Virus record (IMG/VR): IMGVR_UViG_3300046463_001154
Location: 1 to 64,000 of that record
Reading direction: 5' to 3' (one strand)
Length of the DNA stretch: 64,000 nt
From: a virus
Under the pieces are notes generated by a model, which was not told the DNA's origin, did not search any database, and was given only the letters and a program-made list of their open reading frames with translations. The position numbers and the translations under genes were made by a program. This document shows, piece by piece, positions 13,095 to 61,016 of the stretch. The number at the start of each line of letters is the position of its first letter. Positions within the stretch are counted from its first letter, which is position 1.

Positions 13095-14099
13095 ATGAAC
13101 ACGCATGAACGTGAACGCGGCCGTGTACGCCTCTATGCCTGTGGCGGAGGCGGCATCAACATGGGTCACAAGATCGACCATGTGGCACACAACAACGGCG
13201 ACTCGTTCGCGCAGCTCGACGTCGTTTACATCGACACGTCGAAGTCGAACCTGAATTCGGACATTCAGAGCGGGAGCGTGTATCTGATCGACGGTCTCGA
13301 CGGTTCGGGTCAAGTGCGCCGTGAGAACCACGGAGCCATCGCCGAGCGCGTGCGGGACATCCTGCAGACGTTTAAACCCGTCGATCTGAACATCGTGCTG
13401 TCCACCGGCGGCGGCGGTTCCGGTTCCGTGATCGCCCCCTCGATCGTGTCGGAACTGCTGGCCAAGGACTTCCCCGTCGTCGTGATCTGTGTGGGTGACG
13501 ACAGCACGAAGAAGTACGCAGAGAACACGCTCAACACGCTGAAGTCGTACGACCAGATCGCATCGTCGGTGCGTCAGCAGCCGGTCGTAATGTCGTACCT
13601 GCAGAACAGCGCAGAAATGACTCGCCCGGTGATCGACCAGCGCATCCAGCATCTGGTGCTCTCGCTTTGCCTGCTGTACTCGCGCCAGAACCGCGAACTC
13701 GATTCGAAGGACCTGTACAACTGGCTGCATTACCCGAAGGTCACTTCGTACAAGCCGGCGCTCACCGCGCTCACGCTCATCGAAGACCTCAACGCCATCG
13801 GCCTTGCGAAGCTGGGCAACCTTATCAGCATCGCCACGCTGACCTTCGACGGCACCGACGCTACTCTGCCGATTCGCCCGGAAGTGCAATACATCGGGTA
13901 CGTCGACGCGGAAATCTCGAAGGAGATGAAGATCTCCGGCGCGATCCACTACGTGACCTCGGACGGCGTCTTGACCGATGTGGCCGCCGGGCTTCACGAG
14001 GTGCTGGACGAGATGAAGGAACAGTCCGCTGCCCGTCTGACCAAGGGAGGCATTTCCAGCAGTGCTGATCAGGCTACCGATACCGGCCTGGTGTTGTAA
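13095..14099 (+). CDS. phuZ: Phage tubulin/FtsZ-like GTPase (PhuZ)
   Basis: This is a cytoskeletal GTPase whose filaments centre the phage nucleus and move capsids in phiKZ-type phages. The 334-residue protein has the N-terminal glycine-rich nucleotide loop ACGGGGINMGHKID (about residues 15-28) and the tubulin signature STGGGGSGS (about 103-111), matching GGGTGTGS of tubulins. The C-terminus is acidic and helical, as in PhuZ tails used for filament contacts. Length and motifs fit PhuZ. It is a single-gene unit with a promoter-like element upstream and a terminator-like hairpin in its leader. It starts at ATG after AAGGAAAACACAAAG. Confidence 0.92.
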   Translation: MNTHERERGRVRLYACGGGGINMGHKIDHVAHNNGDSFAQLDVVYIDTSKSNLNSDIQSGSVYLIDGLDGSGQVRRENHGAIAERVRDILQTFKPVDLNIVLSTGGGGSGSVIAPSIVSELLAKDFPVVVICVGDDSTKKYAENTLNTLKSYDQIASSVRQQPVVMSYLQNSAEMTRPVIDQRIQHLVLSLCLLYSRQNRELDSKDLYNWLHYPKVTSYKPALTALTLIEDLNAIGLAKLGNLISIATLTFDGTDATLPIRPEVQYIGYVDAEISKEMKISGAIHYVTSDGVLTDVAAGLHEVLDEMKEQSAARLTKGGISSSADQATDTGLVL

Positions 14100-28247: not shown

Positions 28248-30215
28248 ATGGCAGTCAATACCGGCAACAACAACCGCGCAGCGGCAGCAGAAGCGACCTC
28301 GATGGCAGCAGCATTCAGCCGTCAACAGGAGCAGTCGGCACAAGGTCAGCAGCAAGCAGCACCGAGCGCATCACAGCGCCCGCAACAGCGCACCCGTCTG
28401 TCCGATCTGGGAAGCCTCGCGCGTTCGGCAATGGGCCGCAACCCGCAAAGCGAAGTGATCACGAAGCTGAGCAAGGCGCTCGAAGCCGCGTTCGCCGGCA
28501 TCGACAAGAGCTACGAAGTCACGCTCATCCCCATCGACTACAACAACACGCAGTCGCTGGTGAAGTCGGTGATCGTCGTCGCAATGCGCGACCTGATGAA
28601 CAAGGACACGGGCGTGGCCTGCCACACCCTGATCCTGGAAGGGTCGAGCGAGCCGCTGCAAGTCGGCTACCAGATGATCAACAACCAGAACGTCGAAATC
28701 CTGCGCGTGGCCGGCGACGTCAACAACAAGACGCTGTCTGACGAAGTGCTGGCAGCCGTGTCGCGCACCTTCCCCGGCATGCCGATTTGGCCGGTGGACG
28801 CATGCGTGGTGCCGCGTGACTTCAACGTCGATGACGTGACGCTGGTTCACGAGCTGGCAGCGAACGCTGCAACGGCTTGCACGACTGAACTCGAAGTGCG
28901 TCAGCCGGGCGGCTTCGCGGACCTGGACCTGGGCACCGTTGAGCAAGAGAACTCGCTGACCGTTCAGCCGACGTTCGGCAACGGCCAGTCGCGTGACATG
29001 GTCGGCGCACCGGTTCGTTCGGACATCGTGATCGACTTCCGTGCAGGCGGCCAGGAGATTCCGGGTCAGCAAGGCGTGACGCAGCGCGTGTCGCAGATCT
29101 CGCGCATCAGCGGCTACATGGACCTCGCATGGGCACCGGCCGAGCAGCAGACGCAAGCGTTCAATCCGTGGGTCGCACCGCAGGCGCAGCCGGCGTCGCC
29201 CGACGAGTTCAAGCGCTATCGTCCGCGCTTCGTGATGACCGATCTCGAGTCGGTCAAGCTGCTCACGATTCCGGCGCAACTGCTGGCACTCGTGACGGCG
29301 TTCACGCTGGCTGAGAACAACGCATGGGTTGAAGCGTTCCGTCCGGCTCCGATGAGCAACAGCGCGGAAGTGGACTGGAAGGACATCGGCGCGATCGGCA
29401 TCGAAGCGAACTTCGAGAAGAACCCGAACGGCTTCGGCTCGCGCGTCGATACGAAGTCGGATGCGTTCCAGCGCGGTCAAGGTCAAGCAGGCGATCACCT
29501 CCTGCGTCTGGTCGGCTCGGTCATCACGCCGAAACTGATCCTGTCGCTGGACGTGCCCGAGTGCGGTCCGCAGACGTGGTTCAACGGCATCTTCGCAGCA
29601 TCCGGTGAACTGACCGGCAACAACTGGCAGAAGGCGAATGAGATCATCGTCCGCGCGGCGAACGTGCTCACGCACGGCAACTTCAGCCGTTACTTCCAGG
29701 CCGGTGGCCGCGTGGCGTCCGACGAATTCAACCGCATCCATCTGGGTTGGTACGTCGACCGTCATGGCGTGAAGCGTGACCTGCGTGACATCGATTACCT
29801 GGCCGTGCTCAACATGGTCGGCGATCGTGATCCGGAAGTTGCCCGCGAATGGTCGGACTCGTTCGCACGTACGAACATGGACCTGCAAGTTCGTCTGGCG
29901 AAGCGCAAGCAGATCATCGAAGGCGTGCTCGGCAAGAACAACGTCGAGTTCACCGGCTTCGCGCGTCGCGTGACGTTCGACCCGGCGTTCATCGTCGCGC
30001 TGCTGAATGCGTGCAAGGACACGGGCCTCTCGGTCCGCACCATCGCACCGATGACGGATCTGAACCAGTACGAGCGCGCGGTGAACCCGTACGTGATCTC
30101 GGCTGGTCTGGATACGGCGTCGCTCAACGGCTCGGTGTTCAACCGCGGCTTCGCGCATTCGCAGCAACAGCAGTACGGCGCTCGCGCGGGCTTCAGCCGC
30201 TGGTCGCAGCAGTAA
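28248..30215 (+). CDS. chmA: Chimallin-like phage nuclear shell protein (ChmA)
   Basis: In phiKZ-type phages chimallin (phiKZ gp54, about 630 residues) assembles the proteinaceous nucleus that shields phage DNA. This 655-residue protein fits in size and sits directly upstream of the RNA polymerase beta' N-terminal subunit, the same pair order as phiKZ gp54-gp55. The first roughly 50 residues are a disordered Ala/Gln/Ser-rich segment (residues about 20-50), followed by an alpha/beta core and a C-terminal tail (FSRWSQQ) of the kind chimallins use to connect subunits. The codon use is strongly biased to C- and G-ending codons, as expected of an abundant protein. A promoter-like element, AAAAGGAAACAAAACC leader and a terminator make it a single-gene unit. 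The assignment rests on synteny and size rather than a catalytic motif. Confidence 0.82.
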   Translation: MAVNTGNNNRAAAAEATSMAAAFSRQQEQSAQGQQQAAPSASQRPQQRTRLSDLGSLARSAMGRNPQSEVITKLSKALEAAFAGIDKSYEVTLIPIDYNNTQSLVKSVIVVAMRDLMNKDTGVACHTLILEGSSEPLQVGYQMINNQNVEILRVAGDVNNKTLSDEVLAAVSRTFPGMPIWPVDACVVPRDFNVDDVTLVHELAANAATACTTELEVRQPGGFADLDLGTVEQENSLTVQPTFGNGQSRDMVGAPVRSDIVIDFRAGGQEIPGQQGVTQRVSQISRISGYMDLAWAPAEQQTQAFNPWVAPQAQPASPDEFKRYRPRFVMTDLESVKLLTIPAQLLALVTAFTLAENNAWVEAFRPAPMSNSAEVDWKDIGAIGIEANFEKNPNGFGSRVDTKSDAFQRGQGQAGDHLLRLVGSVITPKLILSLDVPECGPQTWFNGIFAASGELTGNNWQKANEIIVRAANVLTHGNFSRYFQAGGRVASDEFNRIHLGWYVDRHGVKRDLRDIDYLAVLNMVGDRDPEVAREWSDSFARTNMDLQVRLAKRKQIIEGVLGKNNVEFTGFARRVTFDPAFIVALLNACKDTGLSVRTIAPMTDLNQYERAVNPYVISAGLDTASLNGSVFNRGFAHSQQQQYGARAGFSRWSQQ

Positions 30216-46991: not shown

Positions 46992-47059
46992 GCATCGTGG
47001 TGCGGGGGATTGCAACCGTCCGCTCAATCCCCTTCCTCCCGTTCTATGCAGGTTTGATT

Positions 47060-48586
47060 ATGGCTGAGCTTCTGATTCGTCTTCATTCGCATCACTTCGT
47101 TGTCAGCAAGGTGACGCCGCGTGCCATGCCCGCGGTGATCGGGTTCACCAAGCAATTCGTGCAACCACTTCGGACCAAGCCGAGTCCTTACTCGAAAAAG
47201 CCGCCGCCTAAGCCGGCCGTGTACGCAGCGCACTGTAGTGATACTGGGGAGTATCGCTACCACATCAACGTCTTCAAGAAGTTCGAGGAACATCTCGGCT
47301 ACCACAATCTCAAGGACTCACTGATCGAAATCGAACGTCCGGAGCTGCCAGCCGTACGTGAAGTGGAGCTGCCCATTTTCGACAAGTGGGATCTTCGCGA
47401 CTATCAGGACGAGGGCGTCGAGTATGTGCTGAAACCCGATGGCTCGGTGTCGAAATTGATCGAGTTCCAGACTGGTAAGGGTAAGGGCGTGACGTCTTTG
47501 TTTGCGGTGTCGAAGACCGGTCTCGCGCCGGTCATCATCGTGAAGCCGATGTACCTCGAGAAGTGGGTCGAAGAAATCCGCGACGTCTATGACATCGCTA
47601 TCGAAGACCTCATGGTTATTCGCGGGAGCGAACACCTGATGGCACTTCTTGAGATGGCTGCCGCCGGCGAGCTCACGAGCAAGATCGTCCTCATCAGTAA
47701 CAAGACGATCCAGAACTGGCTCAAGTTGTACGAGCGGTTCGGCGATCAGACGCTTGAGATGGGTTACGTGTGCCGTCCTTCGGAGCTCATGCAGACACTG
47801 CGTTCGGGCTTTCGCTTGATTGATGAAGTGCACCAGGACTTCCATCTGAACTTCAAGCTCGACCTGTACACGCACTGCCAACGTTCGCTCTCACTGTCGG
47901 CGACGCTCGAAAAGGAAGATGCGTTCATCAACCGCATGTACGAGATCGCGTATCCGACGCCCGACCGTCACAAGGGACCGGCGTACGACCGATACACGAA
48001 TGCGACCGCCCTCTTCTACCGAATCCAGCGTCCTGAAAAGATTCGATGCGTAGAGAACGGCAACTACTCGAACCATGTGTACGAGAAGTATCTGATGAAC
48101 AATCCGCAGGTGTGCTCTAACTACCTGCATTTGATCGATCAGGTGTTGAAGGCGAAATATCTCAGGAACTACCAGCCCACCGAAAAGGCAATCATCTTCT
48201 GCGCGTCGATCGAGTTTTGCACGCTCGTGACGGAGTTCATGCGCAAGCAGTATCCGAACATGGACGTGCGGCGATACGTCGAAGATGACCCGTTCGAAAA
48301 CTGTATCGAGGCAGACATTCGCGTGACGACTCCGCAGTCGGCAGGCACGGCAGTCGACATCCCGAACTTGACCACGAACATCATGTCGGTGGCGATTTCG
48401 AGTCAGCAGTCGATCCTGCAGATCTTCGGCCGTACGCGAAAGCTGAAATCCGGTAAGACTCCCGAGTGTGTTTCGCTGTACTGCTCGGATGTCGATAAGC
48501 ACGTGAGCTATCAGCAGAAGAACCAAGAACTGCTGCGCAACCGTGCTTTGAACTACTCGTCAGTTTTCATCCCCAACGCATTGTGA
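47060..48586 (+). CDS. Superfamily 2 DNA helicase (UvsW-like)
   Basis: A 508-residue helicase of the type that remodels recombination intermediates in T4 (UvsW). It has Q/Walker A FQTGKGKGVTSL (about 134-145), a DEVH box in LIDEVHQD (about 253-260), motif III SLSATL (about 278) and motif VI QIFGRTRKLK (about 453). The N-terminal 110 residues form an accessory domain. ATG 47060 is chosen because the frame upstream to 46997 has no ribosome binding site and begins in the spacer after the polymerase gene. It ends the beta-beta'-helicase operon. Confidence 0.88.
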   Translation: MAELLIRLHSHHFVVSKVTPRAMPAVIGFTKQFVQPLRTKPSPYSKKPPPKPAVYAAHCSDTGEYRYHINVFKKFEEHLGYHNLKDSLIEIERPELPAVREVELPIFDKWDLRDYQDEGVEYVLKPDGSVSKLIEFQTGKGKGVTSLFAVSKTGLAPVIIVKPMYLEKWVEEIRDVYDIAIEDLMVIRGSEHLMALLEMAAAGELTSKIVLISNKTIQNWLKLYERFGDQTLEMGYVCRPSELMQTLRSGFRLIDEVHQDFHLNFKLDLYTHCQRSLSLSATLEKEDAFINRMYEIAYPTPDRHKGPAYDRYTNATALFYRIQRPEKIRCVENGNYSNHVYEKYLMNNPQVCSNYLHLIDQVLKAKYLRNYQPTEKAIIFCASIEFCTLVTEFMRKQYPNMDVRRYVEDDPFENCIEADIRVTTPQSAGTAVDIPNLTTNIMSVAISSQQSILQIFGRTRKLKSGKTPECVSLYCSDVDKHVSYQQKNQELLRNRALNYSSVFIPNAL

Positions 48587-50640: not shown

Positions 50641-51168
50641 ATGAACGATACATTTGGCGAGGACATTCTCGCAATCAATCAACGCGCTTTCAATGAGCTG
50701 CGCGAATATCTCGCTGGACAGACTACTGACCATAAAGGCGTGGTGCTTGTCCCGTCGACGTCTGTCGCTCGCATCGGTAATGTGAAAGACGCGGCTGAAC
50801 AGATCCTGCTCGTGGCGAAGTATCTGAAGTTGAAGGTCTGGTCAGGCCTCATGGCCTGCTGCCTCGTCAACGGCGTGCTTCCCGTCGAGGGCAGTCTCGA
50901 TGCGGTCGATGCACTCACGACGTTCGACGGCCGTCAGCTCTCTGTCGCGAGCACGACAGCACATCGGATCCGCAGGGACCTGAGCGAATGGCGGACGTCC
51001 GAGCGCAACGTTGGGTTAGTAGATCCAGTTTCCTTCTTCGCGTGGTGCGAGGAAGAGGACATCGATACCAACTACGTTCGACTGTTCCGCGAGGTTGCCG
51101 GGTGCGGTGCAGGAAAGATGATCGGTGTCCTTCCGCTCGTCGACGTCGTGCGCTACAGCTACGATTGA
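50641..51168 (+). CDS. Uncharacterised protein (175 aa)
   Basis: A soluble alpha/beta protein. A hydrophobic stretch (LMACCLVNGVL) is too short for a membrane span. It is the last gene before a strong terminator and the last clearly phage-style gene before the plasmid-like block. No family recognised. Confidence 0.58.
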   Translation: MNDTFGEDILAINQRAFNELREYLAGQTTDHKGVVLVPSTSVARIGNVKDAAEQILLVAKYLKLKVWSGLMACCLVNGVLPVEGSLDAVDALTTFDGRQLSVASTTAHRIRRDLSEWRTSERNVGLVDPVSFFAWCEEEDIDTNYVRLFREVAGCGAGKMIGVLPLVDVVRYSYD

Positions 51169-51340: not shown

Positions 51341-51994
51341 ATGTTGATTAAGTGCGCCGGCATTGGCCGGCTGGCTCTGTGTGCCTCACTGATTACCGCC
51401 TTGGCTGCCTGCTCGCATTCGCCGTCGGAGAGCGACGCGAAAGCGGTTATCAAGAGTCGTCTGGAAAACTGCGATTACCTTTCGCTCGATAGCTTCGATC
51501 GCGTGAACGGCATCGCTCAGGGAGACCAGTACTACAACGTCGCCGTCGCGTATTCCATTTCGCTTTCGAAGCCCGACAGCGACATCCGTGATCGGTTCAA
51601 GGAGCAGGCCAAGCTCACCAATCGAATTGCTGAGTTGCAGAAGGAATCTGCGGACAGCATGAAGGCGAGCCAGGAACAGTTCCACGAATACGAGCAGGCT
51701 CACCCTGACGATACCGATGCATCCGTCCACTTTGACGCAGAGGACTCGGGCAAGACCCTACGGGACAAGAACCGCGATGAAATCAACGAACTGAGCACCC
51801 AGCTCGCACAGGACAATGCCGCAGCGACCTGGTTGAATCGGCTTCGGAGCAGCTGCCCTCGCGCTGCAGACTCGTGGTTGTACACCATCAAACAGGTCCC
51901 GATGCAGGCTCTCCTCGATGGTGATGGCAAGATGAACTTCACGGAGACCATCGCAATGATCAAGACCGACAACGGGTGGCAGGCAGCACGCTGA
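51341..51994 (+). CDS. Lipoprotein with coiled-coil-like middle (217 aa)
   Basis: The N-terminus is a signal peptide with a lipobox LAAC (cysteine 24), so the protein should be lipid-anchored in the outer or inner membrane. The middle (about residues 85-150) is charged and helical, perhaps a coiled coil (TNRIAELQKESADSMKASQE); the C-terminus has a small alpha/beta end (GDGKMNFTETIAMIKTDNGW). AAAGGAACGAAC precedes the ATG. It has ordinary terminators on both sides and looks host- or plasmid-derived. A surface role such as superinfection exclusion is possible but unproven. Confidence 0.75.
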   Translation: MLIKCAGIGRLALCASLITALAACSHSPSESDAKAVIKSRLENCDYLSLDSFDRVNGIAQGDQYYNVAVAYSISLSKPDSDIRDRFKEQAKLTNRIAELQKESADSMKASQEQFHEYEQAHPDDTDASVHFDAEDSGKTLRDKNRDEINELSTQLAQDNAAATWLNRLRSSCPRAADSWLYTIKQVPMQALLDGDGKMNFTETIAMIKTDNGWQAAR

Positions 51995-52004
51995 GTGAAA
52001 CACG

Positions 52005-52029
52005 ACGGGTCTCCGGACCCGTTTTTTTT
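52005..52029 (+). terminator. Terminator between the lipoprotein and rep genes
   Basis: Stem ACGGGTC / GACCCGT with a 4 nt loop and eight Ts. It lacks the TATGCCGTC flank of the phage terminators. Confidence 0.85.
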
Positions 52030-52038
52030 GCTCAAAAA

Positions 52039-53187
52039 CTAAGCAGTCCTCATTAGATGCTTGGCTTCCAACAGGCTCCGCAGGCCGGCGATGTGTTCCC
52101 GAATCTGTGCCGTCACCGGCGGCCGTGCGCGTTCCTCGTTCGGCTTCGTGTACGAGTTGAGCGCTGGCTGGAACAAGTCGAGATCTGATGGCGTGGCGAG
52201 ACGGATCTGTCCGCGGGTGATCGCGTCAGCAAAGCCTGCCTTCCATGCAGCGGCCTGACGTCCGATGCCCTCATCGCGGTTGTAGATGACCATGCCCTCG
52301 CCTTCCGCGTCGATCACGTACTTGCGCTGACCGGAGACGTCGACAAAGGTCTGGCCTGCGCTATGACGAGCGATCTGGTCTGCCTCAAACTTGCGCTTGA
52401 GCTGGACCTCTGCCCTCACCTTCGCTTCATTGCGGTGGCGGAGCAGGTGACCGAAGTCCACTGTGCCGCGTAGGAGGCTCCGGAGATAGTTGATCGGGGC
52501 CTTGGCGCGCTTCAGGTGCTCCCACGTTACCTCGACCACATCGGAAAGTCGCTTGCCGTGCTCGCCCGCTTCCCGCATGAGTTTGAAAATCAAGAAATCA
52601 AAAAAACCCAGGGACCGCAGGCGTTGAAGATCCTCAGGCACTTGCCCCGGTTGTCTCTTTTGAAAAACAGAAGGGCTTAGATCCTTATATATACCACCGT
52701 CTGCCAACTTGGCAGACGGGTGCTCAAACGAAGGTGAGGGCGCTTGTGCGGGCTGCACTACCTTCGCTTCCATGGGCTCAACGAGGCCCAGCAAAGCGGC
52801 AGCGTGCTCTGTGAGATGGATGTAGGCACGGCCGAAGAGACCGGCTTCTACGTAGCGCGCTTGGGCGCGGCGATCGATTAGACCGGCAGACTCCAGATCG
52901 TCGAGGCTCCGGTAGAACGTCCGCATGGATTGCAACGCGCGCCCCGTCAGCAACTCGCGACGGGCGAAGATTGCAGCGTAGGGTTTAGCGGCGTCCACGG
53001 TGCGGGCGAGGGCGGATAGAACCGCTCGGGCACGAGGAGGGATCTCTTCGATGTGCGAGGCCCGGAACGCTGCACGGAAGATAACCCAGGGCAGGTTGGT
53101 CGTGTCGCAGCGAAAGGCGGTAAGGGCGGCTGAATCGTCGGGGTGTGTGTCACCCTCGCCAGCAACGAACTGTTGCGCGATAGACAT
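52039..53187 (-). CDS. Plasmid replication initiator (winged-helix Rep)
   Basis: The 382-residue protein resembles replication proteins of betaproteobacterial plasmids. A winged-helix domain lies at about residues 48-105 (PRARAVLSALARTVDAA through SLDDLESAGLIDR). A linker of about 80 residues follows, then a second helical domain (RLRSLGFFDFLIFKLMREAG, VTWEHLKRAKAPINYLRSLL). It would bind the plasmid origin and load the host replisome. The ATG at 53187 is the first in frame. Rep, ParB and ParA are in the same direction, as is usual on low-copy plasmids. A regulator of another type is possible, but the neighbours favour a plasmid Rep. Confidence 0.75.
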   Translation of the reverse strand: MSIAQQFVAGEGDTHPDDSAALTAFRCDTTNLPWVIFRAAFRASHIEEIPPRARAVLSALARTVDAAKPYAAIFARRELLTGRALQSMRTFYRSLDDLESAGLIDRRAQARYVEAGLFGRAYIHLTEHAAALLGLVEPMEAKVVQPAQAPSPSFEHPSAKLADGGIYKDLSPSVFQKRQPGQVPEDLQRLRSLGFFDFLIFKLMREAGEHGKRLSDVVEVTWEHLKRAKAPINYLRSLLRGTVDFGHLLRHRNEAKVRAEVQLKRKFEADQIARHSAGQTFVDVSGQRKYVIDAEGEGMVIYNRDEGIGRQAAAWKAGFADAITRGQIRLATPSDLDLFQPALNSYTKPNEERARPPVTAQIREHIAGLRSLLEAKHLMRTA

Positions 53188-53324
53188 GTCGAGCGGTCCA
53201 TTTTCAAAAATGGATTGAAGACGCTTGACTGTCTCTCGCTATCCGTTACACTCGGGTCTGTTGAGGTCCGCTACCGGTTGGCGCCGGGAGTGTGACGGGT
53301 GAGGTTGAGTCAACCAAGCCCTCG

Positions 53325-53360
53325 AAAGCCTTCGGTTCGCCCCGAAGGCTTTTGTTTTTT
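53325..53360. terminator. Terminator between rep and parB
   Basis: Stem AAAGCCTTCGG / CCGAAGGCTTT with a 6 nt loop, followed on the plus strand by TGTTTTTT. The minus strand has no T tract after it but the stem alone may reduce read-through from parB into rep. No gene is seen between 53188 and 53410; the region could hold the rep promoter or a counter-transcribed RNA. Confidence 0.7.
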
Positions 53361-53410
53361 CTACGTGGGTTAGTGCATGGCGGTTCCGTTTAAGTTAAAC
53401 GCCGTTGAAT

Positions 53411-54409
53411 TTAAAGGGTTTTATTTTCAGAACCCTCTTGCAGCACCTTCTGAATGGCTGCCTGAAGACGTTCTGCTTCCGCTTCCGACGCGAATTGCAG
53501 GCGCATGACATTCTTAGCGCGCCTCAGTTCGCAATACACCGACTTCCCTTGCTTTACTTTGACCGTGACCGGTACGGCTGCCGGCGACGCGGCTTTGGTC
53601 GGCTCAGCCGCCGCGAGCTTGACCGTCTGGCCTTGGTCGATTTCTCCAGCCGCCAGTCGCTTAAATGCCGCTGTTACTTGTTCGCCCCTGCCCTTCTTGG
53701 TCAGTCCAGCAAGCTGAAAAGCAGCCGCGGAGCCGAGGAGGGTGGGGCGTTCCGCGACCGAAGCCAAGACTTCCGTCGGCAGGTTCTCGAAGGCCAAAAG
53801 AAACGAGATGACGGTCTCAGAAACGCCCGTCCGCTCGGAGAGCTGCCCTCTGGTGAGATTGGGCTGCCTCGCAAGGATCCCCTTCAGTCCGACGTACTTC
53901 TCGTAATCCGTTAAGTCCGACTGCATCAAGTTGGCGAAGAACGCGCTGTCTGTGACCTCAGGATCAGTGCCTTCCAAGATGACCGCTTGAATGCTGGATC
54001 GCCCTAGTTCCCGGTAAGCATCGATTCGGTGGTGACCGGAGACGATTTCGTATCGTCCTTCGGCACCACGGCGCACGACGACAGGATGCACGAGCTGGTT
54101 ATGCCGGAGGTTCTCACGCAGTTCGGCGAACTTTTCTGGCGGCATGTGACGCCGCCGCCCCGCTACCTCCACGAGCTCTTGCAACTTAACTTCCATCGCC
54201 GCGTTTCCACCGTTTGCCACCTGGTCACGCAGCGCGGCCATTTCCGCAGACATCGCGTCGATTTCCGCTTGCTTCTCCTTGAGAAGTGGCATGGCGTGCA
54301 ACATCGCGCCTGGTGCTGTTTTCGGCTGGCGCGGTAGCGGCGGGTTCGGAAGGTCGACCACCGGAGCGATCAGTGCGGTTTTTGCCGCTAGCCTATCTTT
54401 GATGCTCAC
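53411..54409 (-). CDS. parB: ParB-like partition protein
   Basis: A centromere-binding CTPase-family protein that works with ParA to segregate low-copy replicons. The ParB box SGHHRIDAYRELGRS (about residues 125-140) is followed by a helix-turn-helix (LTRGQLSERTGVSETVISFL). The N-terminal part has a coiled-coil-like stretch (KEKQAEIDAMSAEMAALRD) and the C-terminus a dimerisation-like end. GTG at 54409 is preferred because GAAGGAG lies 5 bp upstream and the start overlaps the parA stop by 4 bp (GTGA). Confidence 0.9.
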   Translation of the reverse strand: MSIKDRLAAKTALIAPVVDLPNPPLPRQPKTAPGAMLHAMPLLKEKQAEIDAMSAEMAALRDQVANGGNAAMEVKLQELVEVAGRRRHMPPEKFAELRENLRHNQLVHPVVVRRGAEGRYEIVSGHHRIDAYRELGRSSIQAVILEGTDPEVTDSAFFANLMQSDLTDYEKYVGLKGILARQPNLTRGQLSERTGVSETVISFLLAFENLPTEVLASVAERPTLLGSAAAFQLAGLTKKGRGEQVTAAFKRLAAGEIDQGQTVKLAAAEPTKAASPAAVPVTVKVKQGKSVYCELRRAKNVMRLQFASEAEAERLQAAIQKVLQEGSENKTL

Positions 54410-55641
54410 AATGACTCCTTCTGCGCTTCCCACAGCGCTACGATTTCTTGATCGATCATTTCAGCGAACCGATCGTACGCCTCGCGGGCCCGTTGGTAAG
54501 TTCTAGTGCTTCCGTCGTACTTGGCTATGTCATAAACCGTCCCGAACTCTGCCGCAGCACTCGCTGTCACCGTTGTCGTCGGGATCTCAACCGGAAGAAC
54601 GAAGGATTCATAGGTCCGATTAATCCAGTCACGGACGGCGTGCGTCGAGGCCAGGCTGGAATCGACCTTCGACAGAAGCACATGGATGAAGTCGAACCGT
54701 TTGTTATCGACCTCAGGTACCAACCCCTTCATGCTGTCGGCAAGGTCCGCGAAGAGATTCCAAAATTGGGTCGACGAGGCGTAGTCCAGCGCGCTCGGGG
54801 GCGTGGGCACGATAAGAGCATCGGCCGCCATAAACGCATTGATGGTCATGTACGACAGTGCGGGCGGCGTATCAATGATGACGACGTCGTAATCATCCAA
54901 GCACGGCTCGAGCCCTTTGTTTAGGACGTTCCAAAATTCGAAGGTAGGATCCTTCGACTGCTTGAAAGGTAGGAAGAATTCGGCCCCAAACAGCGCGGCA
55001 CTCGCCGAGATTAGATCAATTCCGTCCCAGTACGTCGATTTGATCGCGTACTCCACGCTCTGATGTTCTCCGTAGACGAGGGGTAGGACGGTCTGGTCTT
55101 CCTCCACCTCGCTGTCCGCCAAGATACCCGTGAGCGCCGTCAGCGAAGCTTGCGGGTCCAGGTCAATCAGCAACACACGTCGCCCGTAGAGAGACAGGCC
55201 TTGGGCCAACGTCATCGCAGTGGTAGTCTTGCTGACTCCGCCCTTGAAGTTGCCGATGGCGATCTTTTTGCCCTTCACGCCCGGGGGCCGTTTGGTGAAC
55301 GGTCCGAGCTTTGCGATCCATTCGCGCGTTTCTGTTAGAGTGAACTCACGCGTCCGGTTCGCTGCAGTCCCCGGCGGAAGTCCGAGCTCGGGCTTGTCCC
55401 ACGAGTAAATAACTTTTTTGCGGTCCACCCGACAGAGCGCCGCTACCTGCGAAGTCGTAAAGACCGGAGAGCGCTTGCGGGGGTGGGGCGCGAGCATGCT
55501 TTCACGGACGTTGACCAGCATCTGGCTTGCGTGATCCGCAACCTTTCGAAGGTCGCTTAGCGGAACCCCTGGCAGAACGTGTTTCACCGCGGGTGCGATG
55601 GAAACGATTGGTTTATCAACACGGAGACGTGCGTCAGCCAT
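54406..55641 (-). CDS. parA: ParA-like partition ATPase (type Ia)
   Basis: A 411-residue Walker-type ATPase with the deviant P-loop KGGVSKTTT (lysine near residue 138), the A' motif LLIDLDPQASLT and the B motif VVIIDTPPAL. The N-terminal 110 residues include a DNA-binding helix-turn-helix (TTSQVAALCRVDRKKVIYSW), as in P1-type ParA, which usually represses its own operon. ATG at 55641 is chosen over a longer frame to 55686. It is coupled to parB downstream, and an intergenic region with repeats lies upstream. Confidence 0.92.
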   Translation of the reverse strand: MADARLRVDKPIVSIAPAVKHVLPGVPLSDLRKVADHASQMLVNVRESMLAPHPRKRSPVFTTSQVAALCRVDRKKVIYSWDKPELGLPPGTAANRTREFTLTETREWIAKLGPFTKRPPGVKGKKIAIGNFKGGVSKTTTAMTLAQGLSLYGRRVLLIDLDPQASLTALTGILADSEVEEDQTVLPLVYGEHQSVEYAIKSTYWDGIDLISASAALFGAEFFLPFKQSKDPTFEFWNVLNKGLEPCLDDYDVVIIDTPPALSYMTINAFMAADALIVPTPPSALDYASSTQFWNLFADLADSMKGLVPEVDNKRFDFIHVLLSKVDSSLASTHAVRDWINRTYESFVLPVEIPTTTVTASAAAEFGTVYDIAKYDGSTRTYQRAREAYDRFAEMIDQEIVALWEAQKESL

Positions 55642-56121
55642 AATTGGCGCCTCTGTCCTTCGGACACAATAAAGCGATTCGTTCAAGTCGGTTTGTTTTC
55701 GCCAAAAACGCGTACCAAAGACAGAACATTGGCGAAAGTGCTTCGAACTGTAAACGGTAAACCGGAAGGTGACAAGGTAAACCGTTGTTGCGAAGCCGCG
55801 CCGGGACTAGCTTTCGCGGATAAACCTCGAATCAGTCTTAAGATGGATCGCCGACGTGAAACAACGACTGTCAAGGTTGAAGGCTGTCGATGTCGTGCCA
55901 AATCAAAGACTTAGGTCCCCGGCGGCGATTTTGTTTCACGAGTTCGGAACCGAACTCCGCCGGGCGGCAGCATATTCGGCATCCAGACCACCCGTAGCGT
56001 GCCCAAGAGGGCTACAGAGCTAGAAACGTAACGAACAGTACGTTTTTTGTAGTGCAAGGGCTTGCAACTAACCGTCTACCAATTTGAGGCGCGCAACGAC
56101 GGTCGACGAAAGCGTGTAGGA
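55642..56121. other. Probable par control/centromere region
   Basis: About 480 bp upstream of parA without a plausible gene. It holds GGTAAACCG twice, 20 bp apart (55756-55764 and 55776-55784), next to a related TAAACGG; half-sites of the chromosomal parS type, GTGAAAC (about 55856) and GTTTCAC (about 55933); and a palindrome GAGTTCGG-aa-CCGAACTC (55940-55957). These are candidate ParA operators and ParB centromere sites. Confidence 0.5.
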
Positions 56122-56141
56122 TACTGTTCACCCATACAGTG
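56122..56141 (+). promoter_or_regulatory. LexA (SOS) box upstream of imuA
   Basis: TACTGTTCACCCATACAGTG contains CTGT-N8-ACAG with matching flanking TA and TG, the LexA consensus. It is 13 bp before the imuA start, so DNA damage should induce this gene. Confidence 0.85.
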
Positions 56142-56153
56142 CTTGTTGCCGTC

Positions 56154-56867
56154 ATGTCCGCACTACCGAAAAACATTGAAGAGATCCATCCGTCGTTGTG
56201 GCGAGCCAATCAACTGGCTCGCAGGGCAGGGCGCACCGTGGACACCGGTTACGAGAAGCTCTCCGCCGAGTTGCCCGGTGGTGGATGGCCAGTTGGCAAT
56301 CTCGTCGAGTTGTTAGTTCAGCAGCCGGGGATAGGGGAGATCCGGATGCTCCAGCCCGCGCTCGCAGCCGTAGCGAAAAGGCCGGTCGTCTTCGTCAAAC
56401 CGCCGCATGTCCCTGACGCAATGGGTCTCTCGTATATTGGCCTGCCCATCGATAAGCTAATTCGGCTGGAAGTCGGTAGGACCGCCGATGTGCTGTGGGC
56501 GACCGAGCAGATACTGAAGGCCAACACGTGCGGGGCAGTGTTGCTTTGGCAGCAGCACATTCGCCCTGAGTCTCTCCGCCGACTTCTGCTTTGCTCGCAA
56601 TCGTCGGAGATGCTGTTCTTTGTCCTGCGCCCGCTCGTCGCTGAGAACGACACATCGCCCGCGGTCCTACGACTGGCTATTCGTCCGGCCGCAGGTGGCG
56701 TATCGGTCGACATCGTAAAGCGCAAAGGCCCGGTCGGCGTTGAACCCTTCAACCTTGCGTTGAGGCCTTCGCCCATTCTACTGAGCCCATATGGTCGCTC
56801 GAACAAGCCTGCTCGAAAGCTAGAACCTGTGGCGATCCTGGCAAACACGCAAGCAACGGTGGAGTGA
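56154..56867 (+). CDS. imuA: ImuA-like SOS mutagenesis protein
   Basis: A 237-residue RecA/SulA-like protein of the ImuA family, which in many bacteria is encoded with ImuB and DnaE2 and takes part in damage-induced mutagenesis. Typical features are the N-terminal HPSLWRANQLARR, the VPTGY-like region replaced by VDTGYEKLSAELPGGGWPVG and LVELLV, and the conserved RRLLLCSQSSEMLFFVLRP. ATG 56154 lies just after the LexA box; an upstream GTG/TTG would fall inside the operator. No imuB or dnaE2 follows, only a 106-residue gene; they may have been lost. Confidence 0.82.
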   Translation: MSALPKNIEEIHPSLWRANQLARRAGRTVDTGYEKLSAELPGGGWPVGNLVELLVQQPGIGEIRMLQPALAAVAKRPVVFVKPPHVPDAMGLSYIGLPIDKLIRLEVGRTADVLWATEQILKANTCGAVLLWQQHIRPESLRRLLLCSQSSEMLFFVLRPLVAENDTSPAVLRLAIRPAAGGVSVDIVKRKGPVGVEPFNLALRPSPILLSPYGRSNKPARKLEPVAILANTQATVE

Positions 56868-56868
56868 G

Positions 56869-57189
56869 ATGCCGCGCAAGTTGCCGCGCTTTGAGCCCGT
56901 AGGCGTGGAGGAGGGCAGGGCGCTCTGGAAGAAGTACCGCAATAATGCAGACATCCAGCGTCTGCTCTTGGAGATAGCACACGGCCGGCAGGTCTTCGCG
57001 GATCTCGACGGCTACTTTTCCGTGGTGCAAAAAGTCTGGCAAGAACAAGGTCTCGGGCAGCTCGTTGCCATGGAGAAGATGCGGTTACTGCTCGTCGAAC
57101 AGAGCCTGCGTCAGCGCACACTCACGGGGCTGAAACCAGCGCCCAGGAAAGATGAACCTGGAGAACCTGAGCCCGCGCTAGTCGACTAG
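56869..57189 (+). CDS. Uncharacterised protein in the SOS operon (106 aa)
   Basis: It begins one base after the imuA stop, so both are under the LexA box. The product is a helical soluble protein (EEGRALWKKYRNNADIQRLL...QVFADLDGYFSVVQKVWQE) with a charged Pro-rich end. It occupies the place of imuB but is far too short and has no Y-family polymerase motif. Convergent with the ligase gene. Confidence 0.62.
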   Translation: MPRKLPRFEPVGVEEGRALWKKYRNNADIQRLLLEIAHGRQVFADLDGYFSVVQKVWQEQGLGQLVAMEKMRLLLVEQSLRQRTLTGLKPAPRKDEPGEPEPALVD

Positions 57190-57190
57190 T

Positions 57191-57844
57191 TCAATGACCG
57201 GAAGATCTGCGTCCAAAACCGAGAGCGGCAGGGCGGCTGTACTTCGAATTCTTTACTTTGAGCCAGTCGCGAGAACGCCCCGCTTGGTAGGGCGAGTCTA
57301 GACGCTTCGCCATCAGACCCTCGAGGTCGTGCGCGATGGCTTGCTCGAATACCCACTCTCCCGCGGTTTCAATGCCGACTGGACAAACCAGCACTGGCGT
57401 GTCATCGAAGGTCTCTCGAAGAATCTTTTTGCGCTCGTTGAGCGGCATGCCACGGAGGTCATCGTTCCCCGCCGCAAGGATGTCGAAAACGTAGAGACGG
57501 GCAGGGTGCTCGCGAGCAGCCGCCCGCACGCGCATCGGGATGCGAGTCCGGGCACGTGTCTGGAGTCGTTCGAATGAAGGGCGCCCGTTCTGTTCGTCAA
57601 CGGTCAGTTCAGCGTCCCAAATGAAATTGCCCGGCACTGCCTCAACGGCCTCGATTATGTCTGGAAAGGTCGAATTGAGCGGCGTGCCGTGACGGGAGAA
57701 AAGATCCACCCTTTCCTCGCACTTTCGTACGAACGCCCTGTATCCATCGTATTTGATTTCAAAAATCCATCCTTCGCGAGAGAAGGGTGCACGCGCAAGA
57801 ACGCCATGCATCAGGTCGCTTGGCTCGATCACCGGCAGACCCAC
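57191..57844 (-). CDS. Minimal ATP-dependent DNA ligase (adenylation domain only)
   Basis: A LigD/LigC-type ligase domain. Motif I is FEIKYDGYRA (adenylated lysine about residue 31); motif III region is WDAELTVDE; FDILAAGNDDLRGMPL and motif IV EGLMAKR (about 175-181) follow, and motif V is DWLKVK. At 217 residues it stops right after motif V and lacks the OB-fold domain that completes the reaction in most ligases of about 310 residues. It may work as a very small ligase, with a partner, or be a truncated remnant. It starts 3 bp after the upstream gene's stop. Confidence 0.82.
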   Translation of the reverse strand: MGLPVIEPSDLMHGVLARAPFSREGWIFEIKYDGYRAFVRKCEERVDLFSRHGTPLNSTFPDIIEAVEAVPGNFIWDAELTVDEQNGRPSFERLQTRARTRIPMRVRAAAREHPARLYVFDILAAGNDDLRGMPLNERKKILRETFDDTPVLVCPVGIETAGEWVFEQAIAHDLEGLMAKRLDSPYQAGRSRDWLKVKNSKYSRPAALGFGRRSSGH

Positions 57845-57846
57845 GC

Positions 57847-58344
57847 CTAGCCGCCCGCTTCGTGCGGGGGCGCGTCCTTAAGCCAAGTGAGGATTGTCGG
57901 CCTAAGCGTGAACGCGGGCGCTTTCAGCCAATCTTCAACGGCTTCCGGAATCTCCGGCAGTACCTCGTCGACGTCGAACGGCTCGTCCGGTTCACCCGGC
58001 TGATCGACGGAAAGATGGGCACCAGCCAACCGGTCACCGTCCCAGTACAGCACGCAATACTCCGCGATGTCGGCCGTTGTTCCAGGCGGATGGTCGCGCA
58101 GCAGCATGCTGATATTCGAGCATTGCTTCTTGAGATCGTCGCTCATTGCGTAGCCGCTAGGGTTCGCCGGTGGAAAGCTGGCTGTCACGAACGCTAGCTT
58201 GGCCCAAGCGTTGTCTGGATGGCAGCCCGAGTAGGCGCAGAAATGCTCGAAGTCGTCGAGCGCATTATGACCATATTGGTTCGCCTTAAGTGGGCGCGCT
58301 CGCAGAAGCTCCGCAAGCATCTCGTCAGGTTTTCCGTAGCACAT
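57847..58344 (-). CDS. Uncharacterised protein upstream of the ligase (165 aa)
   Basis: A soluble acidic protein with a Pro/Glu-rich C-terminal half (DQPGEPDEPFDVDEVLPEIP). GAGGGAGG lies 6 bp upstream of the ATG at 58344, which excludes the longer frame to 58392. It is coupled to the ligase gene. No domain recognised. Confidence 0.6.
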   Translation of the reverse strand: MCYGKPDEMLAELLRARPLKANQYGHNALDDFEHFCAYSGCHPDNAWAKLAFVTASFPPANPSGYAMSDDLKKQCSNISMLLRDHPPGTTADIAEYCVLYWDGDRLAGAHLSVDQPGEPDEPFDVDEVLPEIPEAVEDWLKAPAFTLRPTILTWLKDAPPHEAGG

Positions 58345-58403
58345 GTCGACCTCCCTCTGATAATCTGCCCGCAGCAAGGCTGATACCCGCAACGGAGACA
58401 GCG

Positions 58404-58658
58404 ATGGTCAAGGTTGAGTTAGATCTGAGCGACGACATATATCGCAGCTTGGTCATGGTCGCCGAGGCTTGCAGCGTCGCAAATAAGCAACGCGACGGCG
58501 CGACCACTCACGGTCCACTGGATGTCAAAGCGCTGCTTATGATGCTTGCCGAGGATGCAGCCATGGTTCACAGCCGGCCCGGCTCATGGGAAGGTTCGAA
58601 TGCGTCCGAGCTCTTGGCGTCACACGGCTACTGCGTGTCAAGAAATAGGGACAGGTAA
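58404..58658 (+). CDS. Uncharacterised small protein (84 aa)
   Basis: The product starts KVELDLSDDIYRSLVMVAEA, a strand-helix pattern often seen in small ribbon-helix-helix-like or plasmid accessory proteins, but the match is not strong. AACGGAGACAGCG precedes the ATG. It is divergent from the ligase pair and 19 bp upstream of the potassium channel gene. Confidence 0.55.
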   Translation: MVKVELDLSDDIYRSLVMVAEACSVANKQRDGATTHGPLDVKALLMMLAEDAAMVHSRPGSWEGSNASELLASHGYCVSRNRDR

Positions 58659-58677
58659 AAGTTCGATAGAAACAATT

Positions 58678-59277
58678 ATGTCAAATCAAAGTGCGATTCT
58701 GGTTTTTCTGACATCTTCAATTGTCTTTACGCTGTGCATCTTTGCCATACTTAGAACCCAGCGAAACCTTGGCCGCCTCAGACTTTCGGTAATGCTCGCG
58801 GTCACTGCGGTTTGTTACTTCATCATTGCCACACTCTTGTGGTTCGCGATACACGACTGGCTATCATACGGCCGCGATCTCATCCCGGCGATTCTTCTGC
58901 TCATTTGGGAGTTCGTTGTACTTGCGGTCCTGTACTACAGATCGCCGCTGACAAAGCTGACTGCAATAGGCGTGATCGTAGCCTGGACCATTTTCATGTA
59001 CACCCGTTTCTACATGACCTCTGGGGTATGCAGCGACGCTGACTGTCTGGCGATCAACGTAAAGCACGACTGGCGCAGTGCGCTGTACTTTAGTGTGATC
59101 ACCTTCACCACGACCGGCTACGGCGACTACCACCCGCGCGAGCCGGATAGACTCATCGCCGCTTCCGAAGCTCTCGTCGGCTATATTTTTTTCGGCCTTT
59201 TTGTGTCGCTGCTCGCTTCATATTTCTCACGTTCGGAATCCCGCGAAGATCGAGGGGAAGGACATTTCAGCGGGTAA
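58678..59277 (+). CDS. Potassium channel with GYGD selectivity filter
   Basis: A 199-residue membrane protein with about four hydrophobic segments (residues about 5-24, 36-58, 66-90 and 95-113), a pore helix with the selectivity filter TTTGYGDYHP (about 143-152), and a last span (ASEALVGYIFFGLFVSLLAS). The filter is diagnostic for potassium channels. The voltage-sensor arginines are lacking, and no RCK domain follows. ATG 58678 follows AGGTAAAAG at some distance. Channels like this occur on plasmids and in chromosomes; its presence here is unusual for a phage. Confidence 0.85.
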   Translation: MSNQSAILVFLTSSIVFTLCIFAILRTQRNLGRLRLSVMLAVTAVCYFIIATLLWFAIHDWLSYGRDLIPAILLLIWEFVVLAVLYYRSPLTKLTAIGVIVAWTIFMYTRFYMTSGVCSDADCLAINVKHDWRSALYFSVITFTTTGYGDYHPREPDRLIAASEALVGYIFFGLFVSLLASYFSRSESREDRGEGHFSG

Positions 59278-59301
59278 TGTCTTGCTTTGTCCCGCTTGGG
59301 G

Positions 59302-59628
59302 TTACTCTGCGATCAAAAACTTCTCGCGCTTCTTTCCCTTAATCCAAAGGGGCTCACGGCCGCGGCCGCTCCAAGTCGCGCCCGTCTTCGGATCCTGATA
59401 CTTCGCTGCGACCCGTTTCTTAGCGACAGATTTCGATCCCTTCTTCGCCGGCCCTCGCTTTCCTTTCGTGTCGATGTCCGCGATCGTCAGTCCGTACTGA
59501 GCCATCAGCGAACTGATCTGTTCGAGCGCCGCCTTGCGTCGCGCCTCTTCTTCTTTAGCCACCTGTCCCTGCACCTTCGCCAATTGTTCACGCAGTTTGT
59601 CGAGCCGCGCATTCGGTTGCATTGCCAT
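59302..59628 (-). CDS. H-NS family DNA-binding protein
   Basis: A 108-residue xenogeneic silencer of the betaproteobacterial H-NS type. An N-terminal coiled-coil oligomerisation region (ARLDKLREQLAKVQGQVAKE) is followed by a basic linker (KRGPAKKGSKSVAKKR) and the DNA-binding core YQDPKTGATWSGRGREPLWI. CAGGAG lies 8 bp upstream of the ATG at 59628; the longer frame is not needed. Plasmid-borne H-NS proteins commonly mask incoming DNA from host regulation. It is the last gene of the plasmid-like block. Confidence 0.92.
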   Translation of the reverse strand: MAMQPNARLDKLREQLAKVQGQVAKEEEARRKAALEQISSLMAQYGLTIADIDTKGKRGPAKKGSKSVAKKRVAAKYQDPKTGATWSGRGREPLWIKGKKREKFLIAE

Positions 59629-59696
59629 GCTGTTTTCTCCTGAGGAATGCGGGATTGTAGCAACCGGCGGATCCGGATTCAAAACAATCTCAGACC

Positions 59697-59713
59697 TATA
59701 TGACTCGCCCGAA
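59697..59713 (+). promoter_or_regulatory. Phage promoter-like element right of the plasmid-like block
   Basis: TATATGACTCGCCCGAA fits YATATSAC-N5-(T/C)GAA and lies 47 bp before the next small gene. It is the first phage-type signal after the plasmid-like genes. Confidence 0.6.
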
Positions 59714-59760
59714 GCCATCGAGAGATCGATAGCGAAATCAATCTAACCTCGGAGCGAATC

Positions 59761-59937
59761 ATGATCGACTTTGCAAACAACAACTACCATTCTGGCAAGA
59801 AGGCAAACACGGGCTCAACGAAGCGTGGCTTCATCATTACCCTTTTCTTCATCTTCGGTGGCCTCTCGCTCGTCGTCGCTGACCACGTCGGTCACCACAT
59901 GGCGTCGCAGCGCGCGGCTGAAGTCGCGAGCCGTTAA
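59761..59937 (+). CDS. Small single-pass membrane protein (58 aa)
   Basis: A 58-codon frame from ATG to TAA encodes a polar N-terminus (IDFANNNYHSGKKANTGST), one membrane segment (FIITLFFIFGGLSLVVA) and a short tail. CGGAG lies 6-7 bp upstream. A different frame over the same DNA lacks these features. It is the first gene after the promoter-like element and probably early. Confidence 0.58.
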   Translation: MIDFANNNYHSGKKANTGSTKRGFIITLFFIFGGLSLVVADHVGHHMASQRAAEVASR

Positions 59938-59961
59938 AATCAGCGCACTTCAGGAATATCC

Positions 59962-60495
59962 ATGTTTCACAAATCCAATCCAACACCCATATCCAGGACC
60001 ATGGCTCTGATGTCCATGGTCTGCCCCATCTGCGACAGCGGCTTCACCCGATACGCTTCGAAGGTACGGCGATGCGATGTGTGTTGTTGTAGTCGAGCAT
60101 GCTCAGCCAAGGCTCGAGAAGTTCGCATATCGGTCAGCTGCGCAGTATGCGAAAAAGAGATGGAGCTGATACCGTCAAACGTCGGTAAAGTGACCACGTG
60201 CAGCAAGAAGTGCTCTAGTCTGCGGCGCCGATCCGCGAATCCTAAAGCACAATCGTTGCGCGCTTACAAGGACGCTGTCGATCGAATCGCAGCTGGACAG
60301 TTATGCGAAAAGTGCGGAAGGAAACACGGCCCGTTTGTAGTAAAGGATCTTAAAGCAACGTTTGGAGACGATGGAGAACTGGCAATCGATGATGCTCGAG
60401 CCAAACTCTGGTGTCGTCAGTGTCACCTACAGAGCATCGCGCTGGTCGGTGGCAATGCCAACGGAGCGCGTCTCGGTGGAATTAGGAAAACGTAA
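59962..60495 (+). CDS. Multi-zinc-finger protein with HNH-like C-terminus (177 aa)
   Basis: The protein has three cysteine-based modules: CPIC...CSRAC (about residues 21-48), CAVC...CSKKC (about 61-85) and CEKCGRKHGPFV...LWCRQCH (about 114-155). The last resembles the zinc-supported fold of HNH nucleases, but a clear catalytic HNH triad is not evident. It may be a degenerate or unusual HNH endonuclease or a nucleic-acid-binding protein. AGGAATATCC precedes the ATG. It ends at a bidirectional terminator. Confidence 0.65.
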   Translation: MFHKSNPTPISRTMALMSMVCPICDSGFTRYASKVRRCDVCCCSRACSAKAREVRISVSCAVCEKEMELIPSNVGKVTTCSKKCSSLRRRSANPKAQSLRAYKDAVDRIAAGQLCEKCGRKHGPFVVKDLKATFGDDGELAIDDARAKLWCRQCHLQSIALVGGNANGARLGGIRKT

Positions 60496-60566: not shown

Positions 60567-61016
60567 TCAGCGTGGCGACAAGCAGATCCGAACCCGCAAC
60601 TCCAATGGGTCGAGCCACTCCACGATCAAGGGATAGACATCATCCCATCGCAGCTTGCCTTCCCCACATCCGATCATCGGCATCGCGATAGACCGGATCT
60701 GATACTTTTCGAAATCGCGCGCGAGTCGTTTTAGACCTTCGTCGATCCAGTGAAGTCGAGATGGGTTGGCCCAATGACGCTTCGTCGGAAAGCAGACAAT
60801 CAGTTTCCCGTTCTCCGCTTCCCACACAAAGAGCCCGTGGTTTGAAAACACTCGCCGGCGGCACGCATCTCGATACGCTGCTTCAAGACCTGGATACCGC
60901 AAAGCGAAGGCTCTCGCCAAACCCTTGCCCATTGTACCCACTACGTTCACCGGCACCACCAACGCCTGACATGCCGAAGTGAAGACATCTTGCACAGATA
61001 CCTGCTCGATCATCAT
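60567..61016 (-). CDS. Macro-domain (ADP-ribose-binding) protein
   Basis: A 149-residue single macro domain of the DarG/TARG1-like kind. The ADP-ribose pocket is visible as VVPVNVVGTMGKGLARAF (residues about 19-36) and SIAMPMIGCGEGKLRW (about 108-123). Members remove ADP-ribose from proteins or DNA; DarG reverses DNA modification by the DarT toxin. No DarT-like gene is nearby. In a phage this could be a counter-defence enzyme against DarTG or against other ADP-ribosylation. It overlaps the upstream gene by 4 bp. Confidence 0.87.
   Translation of the reverse strand: MMIEQVSVQDVFTSACQALVVPVNVVGTMGKGLARAFALRYPGLEAAYRDACRRRVFSNHGLFVWEAENGKLIVCFPTKRHWANPSRLHWIDEGLKRLARDFEKYQIRSIAMPMIGCGEGKLRWDDVYPLIVEWLDPLELRVRICLSPR

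Follow-up and report, generated by a model that had tools for sequence, protein, structure and literature searches.

A plasmid replication and partition module in a clade of nucleus-forming jumbo phages that very probably also live as low-copy plasmids

Plasmid-type genes within a nucleus-forming phage genome

We analyzed a 64,000-nucleotide stretch of viral DNA (the window), bases 1 to 64000 of the linear, 79,841-base virus record IMGVR_UViG_3300046463_001154, in which a block of plasmid-type genes lies between a phage helicase gene and a phage macrodomain gene (Table 1). The core genes are transcribed in the order parA, parB, rep, all on the minus strand, and span 52.0 to 55.7 kb; beyond parA lie imuA, orf106, a ligase domain gene, orf181, a potassium channel-like gene, and the gene for H-NS. 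The flanks encode chimallin (the phage nuclear shell protein), the PhuZ tubulin, several split multisubunit RNA polymerase subunits, DNA polymerases, and a terminase, a gene content that identifies them as belonging to a Chimalliviridae-type (nucleus-forming) jumbo phage. The original prediction, made from the sequence alone, described a compact block with Rep, ParB, ParA, an SOS-regulated imuA, a ligase domain, a potassium channel, and H-NS inside a phiKZ-like genome; profile and homology searches matched each of these genes, and the phiKZ-like character of the flanks was borne out. The plasmid-like core extends from 52.0 to 57.8 kb. The limits of the block beyond it are less sharp, since the gene to the left (50641 to 51168) is also absent from Burkholderia phage FLC9 (LC667451), the nearest deposited isolate.

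Rep is a plasmid initiator by homology, of the Burkholderiales "Replication protein O" type, ~50 to 65% identical to "Replication protein O" of Caballeronia, Paraburkholderia, Mycetohabitans, and Pandoraea plasmids, with which the window also shares the parA-parB-rep order. No family model for it was found in Pfam, NCBIfam, or PHROGs, a sequence search against solved structures returned chance matches only, and a structure prediction was too poor to be used (mean predicted local distance difference test score, 50). Neither Rep nor ImuA had a match among 50,697 phage records, and a protein search of viral contigs returned one Rep relative, on IMGVR_UViG_3300047322_001237 (G001). A 23-bp palindrome adjoining ATATATA within rep is retained in six elements, and the codons of this segment are frozen: 13 of 14 conserved-residue columns in this segment are identical across eight plasmid/phage elements, compared with 42 of 202 gene-wide. 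We consider the palindrome and ATATATA a candidate origin element.

ParA is 67 to 70% identical to ParA of Burkholderiales plasmids. Together with ParB it has the gene content of a type I ParABS system, namely, a deviant Walker A ParA and a ParB with a ParB_N domain in a single operon. Downstream of parB lies a candidate parS. Palindromes within 150 bp after parB were present in 10 of 17 plasmid/phage elements, against 1.25 expected from shuffled sequences, and they vary between cassettes, as would parS sites of different specificity; G001 and some other elements have no perfect palindrome after parB. Ratios of nonsynonymous to synonymous substitution of ~0.04 for ParA, ~0.06 for ParB, and 0.12 to 0.14 for Rep (~0.14 against G001), which are rough values given that some synonymous distances are large, indicate purifying selection on Rep and Par.

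The same locus in phage contigs and bacterial assemblies

G001 is an independent metagenomic phage contig of 278,988 bases whose ends share an exact repeat of 127 bases, as a circular assembly would. Its chimallin is 91% identical to that of the window, it is collinear across all 79.8 kb of the window's record, and it carries the module at the same locus, in the same order, and between the same flanking phage genes. FLC9 shares a collinear core (chimallin, 45% identity) but has only 3.4 kb and no rep/par between the helicase and the gene at 61438, an interval of 12 to 14 kb in the window, G001, and a third genome, G475:C11.

Bacterial assemblies were scanned for chimallin in species genomes, in 398 genomes of the family, in the genus of one assembly found there (G332), and in a class-wide sample of 369 genomes. 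The species genomes gave one match, in Caballeronia arationis LMG 29324, on contig NZ_FCOG02000011.1 (143,740 bases), which breaks off at the module's left border, in an insertion sequence-like end with 27 exact copies in the genome. Contig C445 has the module and C339 the right phage flank; these two share a tandem repeat at their ends, and the three contigs presumably join up in the phage genome. Another contig, C145, was considered as the carrier of the phage module and dropped in favor of C445 given this tandem repeat in common with C339; C145 has only a truncated phage gene. One further match came from the family sample: G332 consists of five contigs (3.38, 1.91, 0.91, 0.49, and 0.284 Mb), the smallest of which, G332:C5 (284 kb), is a divergent member (chimallin, 40% identity) that is collinear with the phage, has Rep (48% identity), ParB, and ParA at the same locus, and has a map order consistent with a circle. 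Positions 1 to 50000 and 266000 to 284264 of this contig hold ~68 kb of bacterial genes, including those for type VI secretion proteins TssF and TssM, transporters, and PdxA. Three tandem tyrosine integrase domains resembling a recombinase-in-trio arrangement lie at 57743 to 60125; no tyrosine integrase was found in the window's record, G001, or G475:C11. The last of these, from the genus of G332, is 286,074 bases long, with a terminal repeat of 125 bases and the entire module, SOS box included; the G475 assembly is fragmented and could be either an isolate or a binned genome. The class-wide sample of 369 yielded no further chimallin-positive assembly. A chimallin search of PLSDB found nothing; hence, that database lists no such element among its plasmids.

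Virion genes and plasmid replication and partition genes therefore lie on one molecule in the window, G001, G332:C5, and G475:C11. Rep/par genes accompany chimallin in all three chimallin-positive Burkholderiaceae assemblies, in two of them on the chimallin contig at the same locus and in the third by inference, and in five of five known members of the group (four clearly, one by inference). Recurrence of the module in related phages was a test put forward with the original prediction, as was the concern that the contig might be a chimera of phage and plasmid. Although the window's record is a fragmentary 80-kb contig, G001 and G475:C11 are collinear with it across both module borders and agree with it in the module and in the junction genes, and rep-parB-parA occupies this locus in G332:C5 as well. 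Since independent genomes share the same junctions, we exclude an assembly chimera, the probability of which we regard as negligible.

The LexA box of imuA is the sole CTGT-N8-ACAG site in the window; 0.63 are expected, so its count alone is not above chance. However, its position upstream of imuA is kept in five other elements (G001, C445, C145, C413, and G475:C11) and thus conserved across six elements, in line with the original prediction of an SOS-regulated imuA. In G332:C5 a perfect SOS box lies near parA (184384 to 184399), though no imuA match was found on that contig.

Table 1. Features of the module and its phage flanks in the window
Feature	Position	Strand	Basis or remark
Rep, plasmid initiator	52039-53187	-	homology
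23-bp palindrome CCGTCTGCCAA-N-TTGGCAGACGG adjoining ATATATA	52697-52719		within rep; candidate replication origin element
Candidate parS CGTTTAACTTAAACG	53387-53401		9 nt 3' of parB; degenerate copy at 53403-53417
ParB	53411-54433	-	PF02195 1e-11; TIGR00180 above cut-off; sequence matches to solved ParB/Spo0J/Noc structures
ParA, RepABC/SopA-like	54406-55686	-	TIGR03453 5e-60; phrog_164 2e-58; AAA_31; deviant Walker A KGGVSKTT; likely ATG start at 55641
LexA (SOS) box CTGTTCACCCATACAG	56124-56139	+	just upstream of imuA
ImuA	56139-56867	+	NF033429 211 bits (cut-off 150); likely ATG start at 56154
orf106	56869-57189	+	62-64% identity adjoining imuA on C145, C413, G475:C11; follows imuA in plasmids too
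ATP-dependent DNA ligase adenylation domain (nonhomologous end-joining type)	57191-57844	-	PF01068 2e-34; TIGR02779 2e-42
orf181, no assigned function	57847-58392	-	module-conserved; 76% identity in G001, 60% in G475:C11
Potassium channel-like protein	58678-59277	+	PF07885 2e-14
H-NS	59302-59628	-	PF00816 7e-14; kept in G001, C339, G475:C11
Lipoprotein-like gene, left edge	51341-51994	+	fast evolving; 26-37% identity in G001, C145, G475:C11
Helicase gene	46997-48586		phage marker left of block
Macrodomain gene	60567-61016		phage marker right of block
Chimallin	28248-30215	+	phrog_4795 6e-102
PhuZ tubulin	13095-14099	+	phrog_4733 8e-86

A resident plasmid state and its alternatives

These comparisons point to a clade of nucleus-forming jumbo phages that very probably also live as low-copy plasmids. 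The proposal in the original prediction that such a phage persists as a low-copy plasmid gains support from relatives in three bacterial assemblies, including the 284-kb replicon in a five-contig genome. G332:C5 and G475:C11 are separate, nonintegrated replicons; the window phage is a metagenomic fragment, and we infer its resident state from these relatives. Gene content, synteny, conservation, and the occurrence of such phages in bacterial assemblies are direct observations; that Rep and Par work, that residence is nonlytic and heritable, and that the phage can return to lysis is our interpretation. In the phases between lytic cycles, the circular genome would be replicated from an origin activated by Rep, probably the rep-internal palindrome with its AT-rich neighbor; the copies would then be segregated by ParB, loaded at the candidate parS downstream of parB, and by nucleoid-bound ParA. 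LexA would control imuA, and H-NS may dampen the expression of phage genes; silencing of the phage by its own H-NS, as the original prediction proposed, is a reasonable guess that we offer as speculation. The usual shell-enclosed lytic cycle would follow.

Several points weigh against this reading. We know of no sequenced virion of this clade. The SOS box belongs to imuA rather than to an evident lysis switch, and we identified no repressor. In C. arationis, the presumed contig joins run across an insertion sequence element and a tandem repeat. Mere presence in an assembly also proves little, since lytic phages, nucleus-forming ones among them, occur in bacterial assemblies (PMC12768965). In one alternative reading, a lytic nucleus-forming phage survives inside or alongside its host and is carried along into assemblies, its plasmid genes being passengers. 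Consistent with this, lytic Chimalliviridae have been reported in many bacterial assemblies and ascribed by the authors to a carrier-like state (PMC12768965), and phiKZ relatives are reported to show unstable pseudolysogeny (PMC7909554); in the portions of these two accounts that we could draw on, plasmid replication genes play no part. However, a carrier state does not readily accommodate the presence of rep/par under purifying selection in five of five members, the divergent G332:C5 (chimallin, 40% identity) with bacterial genes on a separate replicon, or the lack of this rep in FLC9 and all other phage records, and we consider it unlikely.

A more detailed version of the low-copy plasmid reading, which we hold to be an even bet, is that of a truly temperate nucleus-forming lineage. 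Its resident form would be a nucleus-free, open, circular ParABS plasmid read by the host machinery and possibly silenced by H-NS, with SOS or other signals leading to shell-enclosed lysis. Cassette swaps would allow escape from megaplasmid incompatibility, and the resident form could acquire bacterial genes as cargo, for example, a type VI secretion cluster.

Cassette exchange and comparison with known systems

The replication and partition genes show a mosaic history. Between the window and G001 the synonymous distance is 0.87 for rep but 0.30 for chimallin, and ParA is only 44% identical, whereas ParA of G001 and the distant G332:C5 are 90% identical. In a phylogenetic tree of ParA, the phage sequences branch at separate, well-supported positions among those of plasmids, which forces at least three changes. 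The Reps of the window, G001, and C445 group with those of C. arationis replicons, and C. arationis has four further replicons or replicon fragments with the same Rep family and distinct ParAB. One of these, C145, contains a truncated copy of a module-adjacent phage gene (9606 to 10067) in a replicon that has a lipoprotein gene, Rep, ParAB, and ImuA of its own; we regard the truncated gene as a relic of phage-plasmid recombination. Altogether, these results suggest that partition cassettes were repeatedly exchanged between phages and plasmids, perhaps under selection by incompatibility.

Phage Rep, ParB, and parS might alternatively serve as a weapon that displaces resident plasmids by incompatibility during lytic infection. 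The cassettes do match host plasmid types and are swapped with them, and several replicons of the host C. arationis resemble one another in Rep but differ in ParAB. Nevertheless, a complete initiator, an origin-like element, and a conserved operon are not needed for a weapon, and the 284-kb replicon in a five-contig genome would be left unexplained; we consider this explanation very improbable.

The phage-plasmids P1, N15, PY54, and phiKO2 likewise combine ParA/ParB partition with autonomous replication, and the window ParA is 31 to 33% identical to ParA of N15, PY54, and phiKO2. These phage-plasmids are ~45 to 100 kb in size and are not known to encode chimallin, PhuZ, or a multisubunit RNA polymerase of their own. 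The Burkholderiales plasmids pNK82, pSBC1_4, and pWSGX2 share the parA-parB-rep order with the window (Rep up to 65% and ParA up to 70% identity), but no phage genes were seen near their replicons. Jumbo phage-plasmids as a kind are already known, given pBtic235 of Bacillus thuringiensis, a circular, 235-kb, low-copy extrachromosomal jumbo prophage-plasmid with phage and plasmid modules, repA, and LexA-linked induction, of which a clear-plaque variant lost ~10 kb including repA (PMC9700832). Unlike the clade described here, pBtic235 is not described as nucleus forming, and its host and replicon type are unrelated (PMC9700832). A nucleus-forming phage-plasmid would be new; we found none in the literature, of which our coverage was partial, so an earlier description is possible.

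Nucleus-forming phages are known mainly as lytic, and the literature, to the extent that we could draw on it, describes nothing beyond unstable pseudolysogeny or a carrier-like state. If these phages are indeed inherited as plasmids, new questions arise: how the incoming genome bypasses or exits the vesicle and shell, which polymerase transcribes it at rest, how segregation works when PhuZ is a tool of the lytic cycle, and whether such phages carry cargo on the scale of megaplasmids between bacteria. C. arationis LMG 29324 is apparently a ready test strain.

Among the neighboring genes, the potassium channel-like gene is limited to the window's copy of the module, with no homologue in L004, G475:C11, or C445. 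The macrodomain protein matches DarG (PADLOC, 4.7e-46), and two copies are present in FLC9; this protein is a possible counter to DarT-type defense.
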